Source of the DNA: Acidobacteriota bacterium
GTDB taxonomy: Bacteria > Acidobacteriota > Vicinamibacteria > Vicinamibacterales > UBA2999
DNA: 64,000 nt
NCBI GenBank assembly: GCA_030697165.1
Contig: JAUYQQ010000010.1
Coordinates: 186,001 to 250,000, forward strand
Direction of reading: 5' to 3'
Positions 57,712 to 63,718 of this stretch are shown here, in pieces (positions within the stretch are counted from its first letter, which is position 1; the number at the start of each line of letters is the position of its first letter). The translations under genes were made by a program, and so were the position numbers. The notes beneath the pieces were generated by a model. That model searched no databases, had not been told where the DNA came from, and saw only the letters and a list, made by a program, of their open reading frames with translations.

Positions 57712-59292
57712 ATGAATCGGACGTTTGCAGTTGTTGTTCTTGCTCTTGTTCTCTCCTTAGCTCGCGGCGCCGCTCAGGCGCCGGCCGGCGTTGACCAGAA
57801 CACCGTCAACCGCATTCGCGGCGAGGCCGTCACGCGCTCGCAGGCGATGGAGACGCACTGGTGGCTGTCGGAGGTCTACGGCCCTCGCGCCACCGGCACG
57901 CCGGGCTACCAGCAGGGCGCCGACTGGGTGATGAAGAAGTTCGCCGAGTGGGGACTGCAGAACATTCACATCGAGCGCTTCCCGTTCGGCCAGGGTTGGA
58001 CGATTGAACGCTTCTCGGCCCACATGACCACGCCGCAGGCGTCGGTCGTGATTGGCCAGCCGCGCTGGAACTCGCCGTCCACCAGGGGAGCCGTCACCGC
58101 CGACGTCGTTCACGTGCAGGCGGCAACCGAAGGCGACCTCGCGAAGTACCGGGGCCAGTTGCAAGGCAAGATCATCGTCAGCCAGGCCGTGCGCCCGGTG
58201 CGCATGCTCGACGGCCGCATCGTGCTGCAGATGAACGACGCCGATTGGGCCGAGGCCATGCAGGTGCCGGCACCGGTGGCAACGCCGACCGCCACGCCGG
58301 CGCCACCCGCGACCGGCCCCACCGCGCCACTCACGCAGGCGGCGCTGCAACGGTTTCTCGTGGCCGAAGGCGCCGCGGTGTATCTCGACCGCGGATCCGA
58401 CAGCGACGCGCCGCTTGGCGGCAGCAACCTGTCGTGGCGGACGCAAGTGGTCGACGGCGGCACGGTCTTCCCGGGCAACGGCGGCAGCCGCGACCCCAAG
58501 GTGCCCGCCCAGGTGCCATCGGCCACCCTCGCCGTCGAACACTACAACCGCATCGTCCGCCTGCTGGCGCGCGGCCAGGCGGTGCGGATGGAAGTGGACA
58601 TCCAGACGAAGTTCCATCCGGAAACGGATCCGGCGGGCAACGCCTTCAACATCATTGCGGAAATCCCGGGCACCGACCTCGCCAGGGAGGTCGTGATCAT
58701 GGGCGCGCACTTCGACACCTACCCGTACGCCACCGGCGCCACCGACAACACCACTGGCTCGGCGGCGATGATCGAGGCGGTGCGGGTGATCCAGTCGCTC
58801 GGGCTGAAGCCGCGCCGGACGATTCGCATTGCGTTGTGGGCGGCCGAAGAACAGGGTCTGCTCGGGTCGCGGCTCTACGTCGAACGCCACTTCTTTGACC
58901 CCGCGACCAAGACACCCCGGCCGGGCCACGAGAACGTGCAGGCCTACTTCAACCTCGACAACGGCACCGGCCGCATTGTCGGCATCTGGGGCCAGGGCAA
59001 CACCGGCGCCATGAAGATGTTCGAGGAGTGGGGCAAGCCGCTGAAGGACATCGGCTGGAAGAACGTGAGTCCGCGCTCGGTCGGCCAGACCGATCACGGT
59101 TCGTTCGACGCGGCCGGCCTCCCGGGGTTCCAGTTCATCCAGGAGCGGCTCGAATACAACTCGCGGACCCACCACTCGAACATGGACACGTTCGATCACG
59201 TGCAAAAAGACGATGTGATCCAGCAAGGTGCGGTGGCGGCGGTGTTTGCGTGGTACGCGGCGAACACAAACGAACGGTTGCCGCGCAAGTAA
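57712..59292 (+). CDS. M28 family zinc aminopeptidase/carboxypeptidase
   Basis: 526 aa from the ATG at 57712 (GAGGG just upstream); an in-frame ATG at 57682 would only add ten non-signal residues. Signal peptide (VVVLALVLSLARGAAQ). A PA-like insertion in the middle, then the M28 zinc site: MGAHFDTYPYATGATDNTTG (His and bridging Asp) and LWAAEEQGLLGS (catalytic and zinc Glu), HHSNMDTFD near the C terminus. Hydrolyses peptides in the periplasm or outside. It ends 24 nt before the his leader peptide; read-through into the his leader is possible. Confidence 0.92.
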   Translation: MNRTFAVVVLALVLSLARGAAQAPAGVDQNTVNRIRGEAVTRSQAMETHWWLSEVYGPRATGTPGYQQGADWVMKKFAEWGLQNIHIERFPFGQGWTIERFSAHMTTPQASVVIGQPRWNSPSTRGAVTADVVHVQAATEGDLAKYRGQLQGKIIVSQAVRPVRMLDGRIVLQMNDADWAEAMQVPAPVATPTATPAPPATGPTAPLTQAALQRFLVAEGAAVYLDRGSDSDAPLGGSNLSWRTQVVDGGTVFPGNGGSRDPKVPAQVPSATLAVEHYNRIVRLLARGQAVRMEVDIQTKFHPETDPAGNAFNIIAEIPGTDLAREVVIMGAHFDTYPYATGATDNTTGSAAMIEAVRVIQSLGLKPRRTIRIALWAAEEQGLLGSRLYVERHFFDPATKTPRPGHENVQAYFNLDNGTGRIVGIWGQGNTGAMKMFEEWGKPLKDIGWKNVSPRSVGQTDHGSFDAAGLPGFQFIQERLEYNSRTHHSNMDTFDHVQKDDVIQQGAVAAVFAWYAANTNERLPRK

Positions 59293-59306
59293 AAATCGGC
59301 TACCCT
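59278..59306 (+). promoter_or_regulatory. Possible promoter of the his operon
   Basis: TTGCCG (59278-59283), 17-bp spacer, TACCCT (59301-59306), overlapping the 3' end of the M28 gene. Transcription would begin about 59312, just before the leader ATG at 59317. Weak match, chosen for its position. Confidence 0.35.
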
Positions 59307-59316
59307 TTTTCAGGTC

Positions 59317-59400
59317 ATGTCGCTCGTCCACCACGCGCACCGCAGCCATCACCACCGTTCACCGAAACGGCACGGCAGGAGTTTGCGCGTAGAGACCTGA
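59317..59400 (+). CDS. hisL: his operon leader peptide, 27 aa with seven His
   Basis: ATG at 59317, TGA at 59398-59400. The peptide begins M-S-L-V-H-H-A-H and contains seven histidines (residues 5, 6, 8, 11, 12, 13, 19) among 27, far above chance. It lies directly upstream of a terminator hairpin and the his genes, the layout of classical histidine attenuation: ribosomes stall at His codons when charged histidyl-tRNA is low, letting RNA polymerase pass the terminator. A TTTGCG run at 59382-59387 can pair with CGCAAA of the terminator's 5' arm and may form the antiterminator. Confidence 0.85.
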   Translation: MSLVHHAHRSHHHRSPKRHGRSLRVET

Positions 59401-59424
59401 CGACATCCACCAGGATTCGCTTCA

Positions 59425-59463
59425 CGCAAAGAGCCCGCCGGCAACGGCGGGCTCTTTGCGTTT
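59425..59463 (+). terminator. his attenuator terminator
   Basis: Perfect 16-bp stem, 59425-59440 (CGCAAAGAGCCCGCCG) with 59445-59460, GCAA tetraloop at 59441-59444, then TTTA. Located 24 nt after the leader peptide stop. Confidence 0.85.
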
Positions 59464-59524
59464 ATGACGGGACAGCACTCCTTGACGGGGGGCACCACTT
59501 GACGGGATGGAACTTCTTGACGGG
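59464..59524. repeat. Phased TGACGGG repeats upstream of hisI
   Basis: TTGACGGG at 59482, 59499 and 59517, plus ATGACGGG at 59464; spacing 18, 17, 18 bp. They lie between the attenuator and hisI. Role unknown; could be a protein-binding array or a recent tandem duplication. Confidence 0.75.
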
Positions 59525-59531
59525 GCCGAAT

Positions 59532-59888
59532 ATGGATTTCACGAAACTGGACGGGTTGATACCGGCGGTCGTGCAGGACGAGACCAGCCACGAGGTGTTG
59601 ATGGTGGGCTTCATGAATGACGAGGCGTGGCAGCTGACGCAGCAGAGCGGCTACGTCACCTTCTTCAGCCGCACCCGCAACAAGCTGTGGATGAAGGGCG
59701 AGACGTCCGGCAACCGCCTGGCGGTCAAGCAGGTGTTCGTCGATTGCGACCAAGACACCGTGCTGATCAAGGTGGCGCGCGAGGGCGACGGCAACGTCTG
59801 CCACACCGGCGAACGATCGTGCTTTTACACGGAACTGCCGGGAGTCGGGAGTCGGGAGTCGGGAGTCGATCAGAAGGGGACACGATGA
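59532..59888 (+). CDS. hisI: Phosphoribosyl-AMP cyclohydrolase
   Basis: 118 aa, start ATG 59532. Third step of histidine synthesis: opens the purine ring of PR-AMP. Family residues seen: [51 protein letters not shown] and [10 protein letters not shown] with metal-binding Cys and Asp. The fused HisE (pyrophosphatase) domain of many HisIE proteins is absent. The last 16 or so residues are encoded by the CGGGAGT heptad repeat and look like an added tail. Overlaps hisG by 4 nt. Confidence 0.93.
59839..59868. repeat. CGGGAGT heptads inside the hisI 3' end
   Basis: Four tandem heptads (59839-59868) within the C-terminal codons of hisI, giving Gly-Val-Gly-Ser-Arg-Glu-Ser-Gly. Same unit as the array at 42795. 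Confidence 0.85.
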
Positions 59889-60772
59889 AGTTGAAGCTTG
59901 GTATACCGAAAGGGTCGTTGCAGGATGCGACGATCCAGTTGTTCCAGCGCGCCGGCTACCAGATGCGCGTGGACTCGCGCTCGTACTTCCCGTCGATCGA
60001 CGATCCCGAGATCGAGTGCATGCTGATCCGGGCGCAGGAAATGGCCCGCTACGTCGCCGACGGCGTGCTCGACGCGGGCCTGACCGGCCAGGACTGGATT
60101 GCCGAACACGAGATTGGCCACCCCGAACAGACGCCGCTCGCGCGCATCTGCGACCTGGTCTACGCCAAGCAAAGCTTTGGCAAGGTGAAGTGGGTGCTGG
60201 CCGCCCCCGAAGACTCGGCGTTCAAGACCGTCGCCGACTTGAACGGCAAGCGCATCGCCACCGAGCTGGTGCGCGTGACCAAGCACTACTTCACCACCAA
60301 GGGCATGGACGTGGACGTCGAGTTCTCGTGGGGCGCCACCGAGGTCAAGCCGCCGGTGCTGGCCGACGCCATTGTCGAAGCCACCGAAACCGGCTCGACG
60401 CTCCGCGCCAACCGCCTGCGCATTCTCGAAACCATCATGGAGTCGAACACGCAGCTGATTGCCAATCAGTCGGCCATGGCCGATGCCTTCAAGAAGAACA
60501 AGATCGAGAACCTGGCGCTGCTGCTGCGCGCCGCCATCGATGCCCAGGGCCGCGTCGGCCTGATGCTGAACGCGAAGCGCACCGACCTGGAGAAACTGAT
60601 CGCCCTGCTGCCGGCGTTGCAGCGCCCGACCGTGTCGTCGCTGAGCGATCCGGAGTGGGTCGCCATCAACACCATCCTCGAGGAGAAAGTGGCGCGCGAC
60701 CTGATTCCGCGGCTCAAGGCCGCCGGCGGCCAGGGCATCGTCGAATACCCGCTGACGAAGATCGTTCTATGA
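59885..60772 (+). CDS. hisG: ATP phosphoribosyltransferase, long form
   Basis: 295 aa. First committed step: ATP + PRPP to phosphoribosyl-ATP. LGIPKGSLQ at the N terminus, [42 protein letters not shown] with the PRPP loop (ETGSTL), and a C-terminal ACT-like regulatory domain (about 220-295), marking the long HisG that is inhibited by histidine and needs no HisZ. ATGA overlaps at both ends. Confidence 0.95.
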
Positions 60773-62043
60773 ACTTCGTGAACTCCACCAACCGCCGTGC
60801 GGTCAACGAGCTGCTGTCGGCGACGCGCATTCGCGATCGCGTCACCGAGACGCGCGCCGCCGCGATCGTCGAACACGTCCGAAAGGGTGGCGATGCCGCG
60901 CTGTCGAAGTACGCCCGGAAGCTCGATGGCCTGACGGGCGGCATCGAGGTGCCCAGGCGAGCGTGGGAATCGCAGGCGCGCACGCTCGCGCCCGCGGTGC
61001 GAACCGCGATCACACGCGCCGCCGCGAACATCCGCACCGTGGCGAAGGCGCAGGTGCCGAAAGGCTGGCGCAAGGCCGTCGGTGCCGGAATCAGCGTCGA
61101 GCAGCGGGTGATCCCGCTGTCCCGGGTCGGCTGTTACGTGCCGGCCGGCCGGTATCCGCTGCCGTCTTCGTTGCTGATGACCGCGATTCCCGCGCGCGCG
61201 GCCGGCGTGCCCGAAGTGATCGTGGCGTGCCCGCGGCCCGATGCCGCGGTGTTTGCCGCGGCGGTCGAGGCTGGCGTTGATCGGCTGTTCCAGGTGGGCG
61301 GCGCCCACGCGGTAGCCGCCATGGCATACGGCACCCGCACGGTGCCGAGGGTCGACAAGATCGTCGGGCCCGGCAACCGTTGGGTGTCGGCCGCGAAGTC
61401 GCTGGTCTCGGCCGATTGCGGCATCGACTTCTACGCCGGGCCCACCGAGATCCTGATCGTCACCGCCACCGGATCGGCGGCGGCCATTGCCGCCGACCTG
61501 ATCGCCCAGGCCGAGCACGACCCAGACGCGCGCGCGGTGTTCATTACCTGGAATGCCCGCCTGGCGGACCAGGTGGCACGCGAGGTCGCCACCCAGATGC
61601 CCAGCTCCGGGCCGGCGCTGCAGTCGCTCGAGCGCCACGGCGGCATCATCGTGTGCCGCACCATGACCGAGGCGATCGATCTGGCCAACCAGGCCGCCTC
61701 AGAACATCTCGTCGTGGGAACCGAGGCGCTGGCCAGGCGCGTATGGAATGCTGGAGCCGTGTTCGTGGGCGAGTGGACGGCACAGGTCGCCGGCGATTAC
61801 GCCATCGGCTCGAATCACGTGCTGCCGACCGCCGGTGCGGCCCGCTATCGCGGCGGGCTGAACGCCGCTGATTTCGTGAAGCTGGTCTCGGTCCAACGTA
61901 TGACGAAGCGCGGACTCGCGAGCATTGCGGGCACGGTAACCACACTGGCGCGCGCCGAAGGCCTCGAGGGCCACGCGCGATCGATTGAAGCTCGATCGAC
62001 TCCCGACTCCCGGTTCCCGACTCCCGGCAGGAAACAATCATGA
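60769..62043 (+). CDS. hisD: Histidinol dehydrogenase
   Basis: 424 aa; start ATG 60769 overlapping the hisG stop. Last two steps, histidinol to histidine with two NAD+. Seen: [90 protein letters not shown] (zinc/substrate His). The final 16 or so residues ([15 protein letters not shown]) are encoded by the dispersed GACTCCCGG repeat and exceed the usual length. Overlaps hisC by 4 nt. Confidence 0.96.
61998..62029. repeat. Dispersed GACTCCCGG repeat at the hisD 3' end
   Basis: CGACTCCCGACTCCCGG, GTTCC, CGACTCCCGG, nearly the same order as at 42980-43014 in front of the ATP-grasp gene, and again followed by CAGG and a start codon (hisC). Confidence 0.85.
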
Positions 62044-63116
62044 CCACCATTCAAGGAGTGCCTGATCTGGGCCCCGGCCTTCGCCTTCACCTCAACGAGA
62101 ACACCGCCGGCTGCTCGCCGAAGGTGGTCGAGGCCGTCCGGGCATTCGACGGCCAGCGGCTGGCGACCTATCCCGATTTCCGCGACGCGATCTTCGAGAC
62201 GGCCGCTTTCCTCGGTGTCGAACCGGACCGCATCGTGCTGACCAATGGCCTGGACGAGGGCATCCTGCTCGCGTCGATCGCCTACCTGGGCCACCGGACA
62301 CCCGAGGCACTGGTGGAGCTCGGCGCGCCGATCACGGCCCTCTCCGGCGCCGCAGAGGTCATCGTCTCGCAGCCGGCATTCGAGCCGTACCTGCATGCGG
62401 CACACGCCCTTGGCGCGCGCGTCGTGTCGGTACCAGCCGGTCCCGACTACGCCTATCCGCTCGAGGGGGTGCTGAAGGCCATCACGCCCAACACCCGGAT
62501 CGTCTACGTGAACAACCCGAACAACCCGAGCGGCCAGCCGGTGCCGCAAGAGGCGATTCGCCGCGTGGCGCGCGCGGCCGGCCATGCGCTGGTGTTCGTG
62601 GACGAGGCGTATCACGACTTCCTGGGCGAGAACTTCCTGAGCGAGGCGGCCGACTACGCGAACGTGATCGTCGGGCGCACGTTCTCGAAGGCGTTCGGCC
62701 TGGCCGGCATGCGCGTCGGCGTGATGATGGCGTCGCCGGCCATCCTGGCGCCGATTCGCCGCGCCATGCCGCTGTTCAACCTGAACGTGGTCGCGGTGGC
62801 CGCCCTCCGCGCCGCGGTCGGCGATACCGAGTTTCGGTCCTGGTATGTGGCGCAGGCGAATGAATCGAAAGAGCTGGTTTACGCGGCGTGCGGCCGCGCG
62901 GGCCTGCGCTACTGGAAGAGCGGGGCCAACTTCGTGTTGATTGATGGCGGCGATCGCGCGCGCGCGCTGGTGGACGGAATGATCGCGCAAGGGGTGTTCG
63001 TGCGGGACCGCACCAAGGACCCGGCGTGCCCCAACTGCTTCCGTCTCACGACCGGGGTCGTCGAGCACACGCGTCACGCGGTGGCGACATTGGAGGCATT
63101 GTGCCACCTTCGCTAA
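62040..63116 (+). CDS. hisC: Histidinol-phosphate aminotransferase
   Basis: 358 aa. PLP enzyme making histidinol phosphate from imidazole-acetol phosphate and glutamate. LNENTAG at the substrate end, [21 protein letters not shown] and the PLP lysine in [14 protein letters not shown] are all present, in contrast to the degenerate relative at 51568. Overlaps hisB by 16 nt. Confidence 0.95.
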
Positions 63117-63718
63117 AGCTACGGCGGCCAAGGCGCAGTGCGGTAATCGATCGGCGCACAGCCGAGACGCAGATCAAGGTCACGCTGAAGCTCGATGGCA
63201 AAGGCAATTACGAGAACAGCACCGGCATCCGCTTTCTCGATCACATGCTGGACCTGGTGGCGCGGCACGGCGGCTTCGACCTCAAGGTCAAGGCCACCGG
63301 CGACCTGGACGTGGATCAGCACCACACCGTGGAGGACGCCGGCATTGCCCTGGGCGAGGCCGTGCTGGCCGCCATCGGCAACAAGCGCGGCATCAACCGC
63401 GCCGGGTACTTCGTGATGCCGATGGACGAGACCCTCGCGGTCGCGGCCATCGACTTGAGCGGCCGGCCGCACTGCGTCGTGGACACCAAGGTCACGGTGC
63501 GGGTGGTCGGCGATCTGCAGACCGAACTGGTGCACGACTTCTTCGACGGCTTCGCCATGGCCGCGCGGGCCAACGTGCACCTGAAGGTGATGTACGGGCG
63601 GTCGAACCACCACAAGATCGAGGCCTGCTTCAAGGCGTTCGCGCGCGCGCTGCGGGTGGCGTGCGCGAAGGACAAGCAGATGGCGCGCAGCCTGCCGAGC
63701 ACCAAGGGCCTGCTGTGA
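63101..63718 (+). CDS. hisB: Imidazoleglycerol-phosphate dehydratase
   Basis: 205 aa from GTG 63101, with GGAGG 4 nt upstream inside hisC. Sixth step. Metal-binding motifs [33 protein letters not shown] and [17 protein letters not shown] are complete. Monofunctional; no phosphatase domain. GTGA overlap with hisH. Confidence 0.95.

Follow-up and report, generated by a model that had tools for sequence, protein, structure and literature searches.

The window analyzed here is a 64,000-nt stretch (contig 10, positions 186001–250000) of a 5.4-Mb genome whose closest named relatives are MAGs of Acidobacteria and Vicinamibacterales. It contains a histidine biosynthesis operon preceded by a short His-rich open reading frame and a hairpin (Table 1). 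The gene next to the hairpin had been predicted to be hisI, which agrees with its match to PF01502. The genes hisI, hisG, hisD, the hisC-type gene, and hisB, named from Pfam models, overlap end to start, and hisH, hisF, and hisA, named by reading the sequence without a Pfam scan, are located just beyond the window edge. Owing to this layout, one leader can serve most of the pathway, and, as in classical his attenuators, the leader is located before the histidine biosynthesis genes. The upstream gene, encoding an M28 peptidase, ends at 59292. Several repeats were noted around hisI. The stretch from the terminator to hisI (59464–59524) contains four copies of (A/T)TGACGGG with a spacing of 17–18 nt; a similar array is present in a genus mate (L015), and akin arrays occur at several other places in the genome (five pattern matches, none in the control). 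The 3' end of hisI (59840–59868) carries a tandem GGGAGTC repeat, and in some other genera the region preceding hisI is filled with similar GTCGGGA repeats. Elsewhere in the window, the minus strand contains four abutting very long ORFs of 1047, 2783, 3428, and 3604 aa (5737–38322).

Table 1. Coordinates of the predicted leader elements and his genes in the window
Feature	Position	Strand	Comment
-35 box TTGCCG, predicted promoter	59278..59283	+	within the M28 peptidase gene upstream, at its 3' end
-10 box TACCCT, predicted promoter	59301..59306	+	spaced 17 nt from the -35 box and 10 nt from the leader start codon
His leader peptide ORF, 27 aa	59317..59400	+	reads MSLVHHAHRSHHHRSPKRHGRSLRVET and a stop codon; leader in 41/41 family loci
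Seven His codons of the leader ORF	59329, 59332, 59338, 59347, 59350, 59353, 59371	+	
Region 1 core, His-Ala-His codons CACGCGCA	59332..59339	+	ACGCGCA pairs with TGCGCGT 59384-59390 (1:2)
Region 2, leader end, pairs with region 1 or region 3	59373..59390	+	
Region 3, terminator 5' arm and antiterminator 3' arm (2:3)	59424..59440	+	
Region 4, terminator 3' arm, with and before imperfect U-tract (CTCTTTGCGTTTAT)	59445..59461	+	
hisI, phosphoribosyl-AMP cyclohydrolase, first operon gene	59532..59888	+	PF01502
hisG	59885..60772	+	PF01634 and PF08029
hisD	60769..62043	+	PF00815
hisC-type aminotransferase	62040..63116	+	PF00155
hisB (IGP dehydratase)	63113..63718	+	PF00475

The original prediction described a leader peptide of 27 aa with seven His codons, and the ORF found is exactly as claimed. 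Among the window ORFs of 7–60 aa, one has six His in 14 aa and one has five. The leader region folds 5.9 s.d. below shuffled sequences. In the genus mates, the leader peptide ends in ..GTAGVCA or ..RPAGVCA and mostly has six His. The end of the window peptide (..HGRSLRVET) is shifted by 1 nt relative to them, which adds the seventh His. This shifted end, or the perfect stem and poor U-tract of the window's terminator, may be either real drift or an assembly error.

A search for the leader upstream of hisI in related genomes, proposed as a check, was performed in a family set of 43 genomes, including the window's own, of which 41 had a hisI match. ORFs within 330 nt upstream of hisI were scored by the number of His per 14 residues. 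A His-rich leader (at least five His in 14 residues) was found in all 41 loci, so that conservation of the His codons, the absence of which in relatives had been named as refuting evidence, proved to be very strong. The reverse strand gave no such ORF in any of the 41 loci even at four His, and 820 dinucleotide shuffles gave none at five His and 1.6% at four. Most leader peptides have 5–9 His, often arranged as HH-A-H and HHH. The hisG gene directly follows hisI in 40 of the 41 loci.

For the rest of the order, 89 genomes gave a hisI match, and loci from 73 of them were analyzed. At least four His were found upstream in 67 loci and at least five in 60, compared with 4 and 0 loci, respectively, on the reverse strand and 1.9% and 0.2% in shuffles. 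Six loci were missed. L137 and L186 have three His upstream, and in both genomes matches to the RNA model described below adjoin hisI. L158 has merely 102 nt of upstream DNA, and the genome of L175 carries a four-His leader farther upstream (L287). The last two, L141 and L151, belong to one genus. Three loci of this genus (L280, L281, and L282) have a leader ORF and a promoter in the same register between hisI and hisG, which places hisI outside the switch there; L151 has a weak model match between these genes and no four-His ORF. An RNA model built from the family matched 41 of the 43 family genomes, its own training set, and 80 of 119 other genomes of the order, with a few of the 80 matches being weak or away from hisI; in other orders, it matched 2 of 31 genomes, both weakly. 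The weak model matches in G054, G058, and G186 (L284–L286) had no his gene in the surrounding 2.6–2.8 kb.

In named genome records (L050–L129), a four-His ORF was present within 450 nt upstream of hisI in 76 of 80 cases; many of these are the same genomes as in the numbered family and order sets, so that the sets are not independent. Two of the four misses have less than 120 nt of upstream DNA, and the four-His match of L107 looks spurious. The leader-bearing named records include Bryobacterales and a Granulicella, while the named distant set (L089–L129) also includes some loci of the window's order. Among the best HisI matches were records titled Acidimicrobiia, Bifidobacterium, Nanoarchaeota, Acidimicrobium, and Verrucomicrobia (L071, L100, L125, L127, and L128); L071 and L100 appear to be the same-order genomes G110 and G093, and at least these two titles look wrong. 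Forty hisI loci of the same phylum were picked by hand, the first 20 being mostly better HisI matches. The leader was found in 20 of 20 loci of f26, f72, and one of f43, which we take to be of Terriglobia type, and in none of the other 20, which represent 15 families and include one more f43 locus. Within the same class, none of 16 hisI loci from other orders (16 of 24 fetched) had a leader. Both strands of the hisG surroundings in 14 of these 16 genomes also lacked one; the single four-His ORF there (L226) was judged not to be a leader. Where hisI is not the first gene, a leader may lie elsewhere. Six same-genome loci of trpE-, ilvB-, and leuA-type enzymes, identified with Pfam models, had no attenuator of such form. 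The sole promoter-plus-start match among them (L277) was rejected as a 50-codon ORF without a run of leucines. Judging from these comparisons, the putative switch accompanies a single form of the his operon, found in two lineages.

The leader is preceded by a predicted promoter. A -35 box beginning with TTGC is usual in the family, and TTGACA is frequent in the order; in relatives, a TTG... box is followed after 16–19 nt by a TANNNT-like box and then by the leader. In 38 of 40 family loci, the best-scoring -10 box ends 8–13 nt ahead of the chosen start, L017 being left out of this count because of too little upstream DNA. In the remaining two loci, it is 18 and 19 nt off, and both have an earlier possible start. 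With script-chosen starts, the distance was 8–12 nt in 35 of 40 family loci, 6–11 nt in 56 of 67 order loci, and 6–10 nt in 17 of 20 Terriglobia-type loci. Promoter scores in these three sets were 12.39, 13.99, and 14.43, versus 9.94, 9.70, and 10.50 for simple shuffles. According to the accessible text of PMC3160421, a gene with a TANNNT signal about 10 bp before its start is most probably leaderless, and such a signal occurs here at this distance. The transcript would begin about 0–4 nt before the start codon, too close for a Shine-Dalgarno site to fit in between. The promoter spacing therefore suggests a leaderless mRNA as the probable template for translation of the leader.

The terminator had been described as a 16-bp stem with a GCAA loop. 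The loop is correct, while the stem (59424–59440/59445–59461) has 17 bp and is a perfect palindrome. Folded alone, the hairpin has an energy of -36.4 kcal/mol. The U-tract of the window's copy, with 4 T in 9 nt, is the weakest in the family (5–8 in the other 40 loci), and a simple terminator scan found none at the window's own copy; the 17 perfect stem pairs appear to have been gained at the cost of the U-tract. Family-wide, hairpins with at least 5 T in the 9 nt past their core, present in 40 of 41 loci, would provide a Rho-independent terminator between the leader and the first gene. It could be proposed that the hairpin is just a plain terminator of the M28 peptidase gene, which ends nearby, and that the His-rich ORF arose by chance in GC-rich DNA; the palindromic stem in the window's genome and a similar 29-nt stretch found once more in this genome would fit. 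However, a relative of the M28 gene was found in just 10 of 41 family loci within the DNA fetched per locus, yet the leader, hairpin, and his operon stay; the promoter keeps a fixed register just before the leader, and the His controls are empty at five His. This explanation is extremely unlikely. Translational attenuation, in which the structure would govern how accessible the hisI start is instead of acting on termination, would accommodate the weak U-tracts of some copies, namely that of the window and those of two order loci (L157 and L171) with no T run behind the hairpin. It is very unlikely considering the T runs of the other family copies and the distance from the hairpin to hisI, which varies widely among relatives over a stretch often filled with repeats. 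Transcription termination is thus the preferred role of the hairpin.

The RNA follows a four-region plan, in which the His-codon run (region 1) pairs with the leader end (region 2), region 2 pairs with the terminator 5' arm (region 3), and region 3 pairs with region 4. The pairing of TTTGCG at 59382 with the CGCAAA arm of the terminator had been predicted; both motifs are as stated, but they form just 6 bp of a longer antiterminator. The 1:2 pairing of the codon run with region 2, a classical attenuator feature, is an addition to the original prediction, as are the promoter and the probable leaderless start. The best duplex of region 2 involves the terminator 5' arm in all 41 family loci. Compared with shuffled region 2, the 2:3 duplex is better by 2.3 s.d. 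on average in the family, by 0.9 in the window, and by less than 1 in several loci.

Coordinated change of the pairing partners was assessed by pairing region 2 of each genome with its own region 3 and with that of every other genome (family, n = 39; order, n = 57; named distant set, n = 30; permutation p values ignore relatedness). For 2:3, own pairs were better by 2.7, 3.7, and 1.9 kcal/mol in these sets, respectively (p = 0.0002, 0.0002, and 0.0006). The own-pair gain for 1:2 was 3.8, 2.3, and 2.8 kcal/mol (p = 0.0002 each). The control pairing 1:3 gave no own-pair gain and was not significant in any of the three sets, and reversed controls were null, except for 1:2 in the family (p = 0.024). 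Left out of the test were 29 of 155 loci, 7 without a leader according to a simple finder and 22 without a mismatch-free hairpin followed by enough T; visual inspection reveals a hairpin with interruptions in most of the 22, but no hairpin in L107 and no T run in L157 and L171.

When RNAalifold was applied to plain MAFFT alignments, the 2:3 antiterminator was missed, apparently owing to a register mismatch there between the window's genus and the others. Single-sequence duplexes, the within-versus-between-genome tests, and a structure derived from single sequences were used instead. The covariation score was 0.151 for 2:3 (0.107 ± 0.008 shuffled, at most 0.080 slid) and 0.139 for 1:2 (0.107 ± 0.008 shuffled, at most 0.109 slid). 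Since a structure derived from the same sequences favors itself on the slid control, weight is placed on the shuffles and the within-versus-between test. In the 2:3 columns, 34 cells were changed on both sides versus 18.9 in shuffles (0 of 500 shuffles as high), and 8 pairs were changed on both sides versus 5.9 (27 of 500), while the number of pair types was not raised. Examples are C-G to U-A at A2 33:94 in nine sequences and G-C to U-A at 32:95 in seven. The 1:2 columns gave a weaker signal, with 10 both-side-changed cells versus 4.9 in shuffles, neither pairs changed on both sides nor pair types raised, and one core pair mostly unpaired. The covariation of the alternative stem, suggested as a check, was thus observed for 2:3 in both the within-versus-between test and the column scores; its use of the terminator 5' arm would make the antiterminator exclude the terminator.

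The frequent HH-A-H and HHH runs could also be taken to mean that the leader product is itself a functional His-rich small peptide that binds metal, the hairpin merely ending its mRNA. Such a role is hardly credible for a leader that sits at the his operon, including a position before hisG in one genus, and in which both 1:2 and 2:3 covary. Moreover, the end of the peptide changes frame: region 2 is much alike at the RNA level though it is read as ..RPAGLRA, ..VRQDCAR, or, in the window, ..HGRSLRV, which indicates that the RNA is kept rather than the peptide end.

In 37 of 41 family loci, 2:3 has a higher stability than the 3:4 hairpin taken in isolation. Nevertheless, 3:4 is the minimum-energy fold of the 2-3-4 stretch in 35 of 41; therefore, the choice must fall during transcription, as in known attenuators. 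The window's copy is among the four loci in which 2:3 is the less stable one, with a 3:4 hairpin of -34.7, the second strongest of 41, versus -25.6 for its 2:3, and antitermination there must win kinetically. The ribosome covers about 15 nt downstream of the P site. With this footprint, region 2 would stay accessible while a ribosome is stalled on the first six His codons (up to 59355), and a ribosome at the stop codon (59390 in the genus-mate frame, 59398 in the window) would cover most of region 2.

The element is very probably a ribosome-mediated transcription attenuator of the his operon, as argued by its parts, their conservation, the linkage to the his operon, and the coordinated change of the 1:2 and 2:3 partners. 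The original proposal of ribosome-mediated his attenuation in a probable acidobacterium is thus supported at the sequence level by conservation, covariation, the Acidobacteria relatives, and the his operon. Transcription would start at the leader start codon or a few nucleotides before it, and the ribosome would load on an essentially leaderless mRNA. At low levels of histidyl-tRNA, the ribosome would stall on the His codons and cover region 1, so that the free region 2 could capture the terminator 5' arm (2:3) and RNA polymerase would read into the his genes. If histidine is abundant, the ribosome would reach the stop codon and cover region 2, allowing the 3:4 terminator to form; in the absence of translation, 1:2 would form, leading to termination.

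We lean toward the broader reading that Vicinamibacterales and Terriglobia-type bacteria possess a leaderless his attenuator, in which RNA polymerase would start at the leader's start codon, the ribosome would have to load directly at the 5' end, and histidyl-tRNA would be sensed within about the first 40–60 nt. No similarity to the proteobacterial attenuator was detected, and an independent origin is probable. If this is true, tight transcription-translation coupling and efficient leaderless initiation would operate in the phylum. To our knowledge, both processes have been little studied in Acidobacteria, and the leader, if leaderless, would be a natural reporter for them. Its signal, target, and mechanism are open to base-by-base testing, and 128 natural copies (41 + 67 + 20) are available for covariation.

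Attenuation of this kind is a textbook principle, but the element seems to be the first clear acidobacterial case, and the probably leaderless form is also new to the literature searched. The accessible text of PMC4833913 reports that short leader genes lying near structural genes are overrepresented in Acidobacteria and other groups; his leaders are mentioned there for gamma-proteobacteria and some Firmicutes only, and the reference list adds a search in Actinobacteria. No acidobacterial histidine leader was found in the titles, abstract openings, and text passages covered of the literature on histidine attenuation and leader peptides, including PMC2965389, PMC10272879, and PMC1262725; the comparative survey of Lopatovskaya and others (Mol Biol 2010, 44:128) could hold acidobacterial predictions.

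The Rfam matches of the window did not include RF00514 (His_leader) even at E up to 10, the nearest entry being Thr_leader RF00506 over the hairpin (24.4 bits versus a threshold of 55). In 20 relatives, no Rfam family reached the gathering score, and there was no T-box entry for the window or these relatives. The element differs from proteobacterial hisL in having a different peptide, hisI as the first gene (the E. coli his operon begins with hisG), and a probably leaderless start. Like hisL (RF00514), as described in the available part of PMC9413887, it combines a leader rich in His codons, alternative hairpins, and a terminator before the his operon. A leader peptide ORF at the transcript 5' end is reported, in the accessible text of the respective papers, for S. 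meliloti trpL (PMC7298713), S. lividans LeuL, TrpL, and IlvL (PMC8079986), and C. glutamicum ilvBNC (PMC11857589). These leaders respond to other amino acids and belong to other phyla, and the S. meliloti and S. lividans starts come from transcript data, while promoter spacing alone is used here. The same principle and pathway, also predicted by genome comparison, appear in the His leaders that the available part of PMC9413887 lists for the Bacillus cereus group, Eubacteriales, and Erysipelotrichales, with three to five consecutive His codons and a spread of six, five, and six species, respectively. Compared with these Firmicutes leaders, the one described here occurs in 41 of 41 family loci and in most of the sampled loci of the order.
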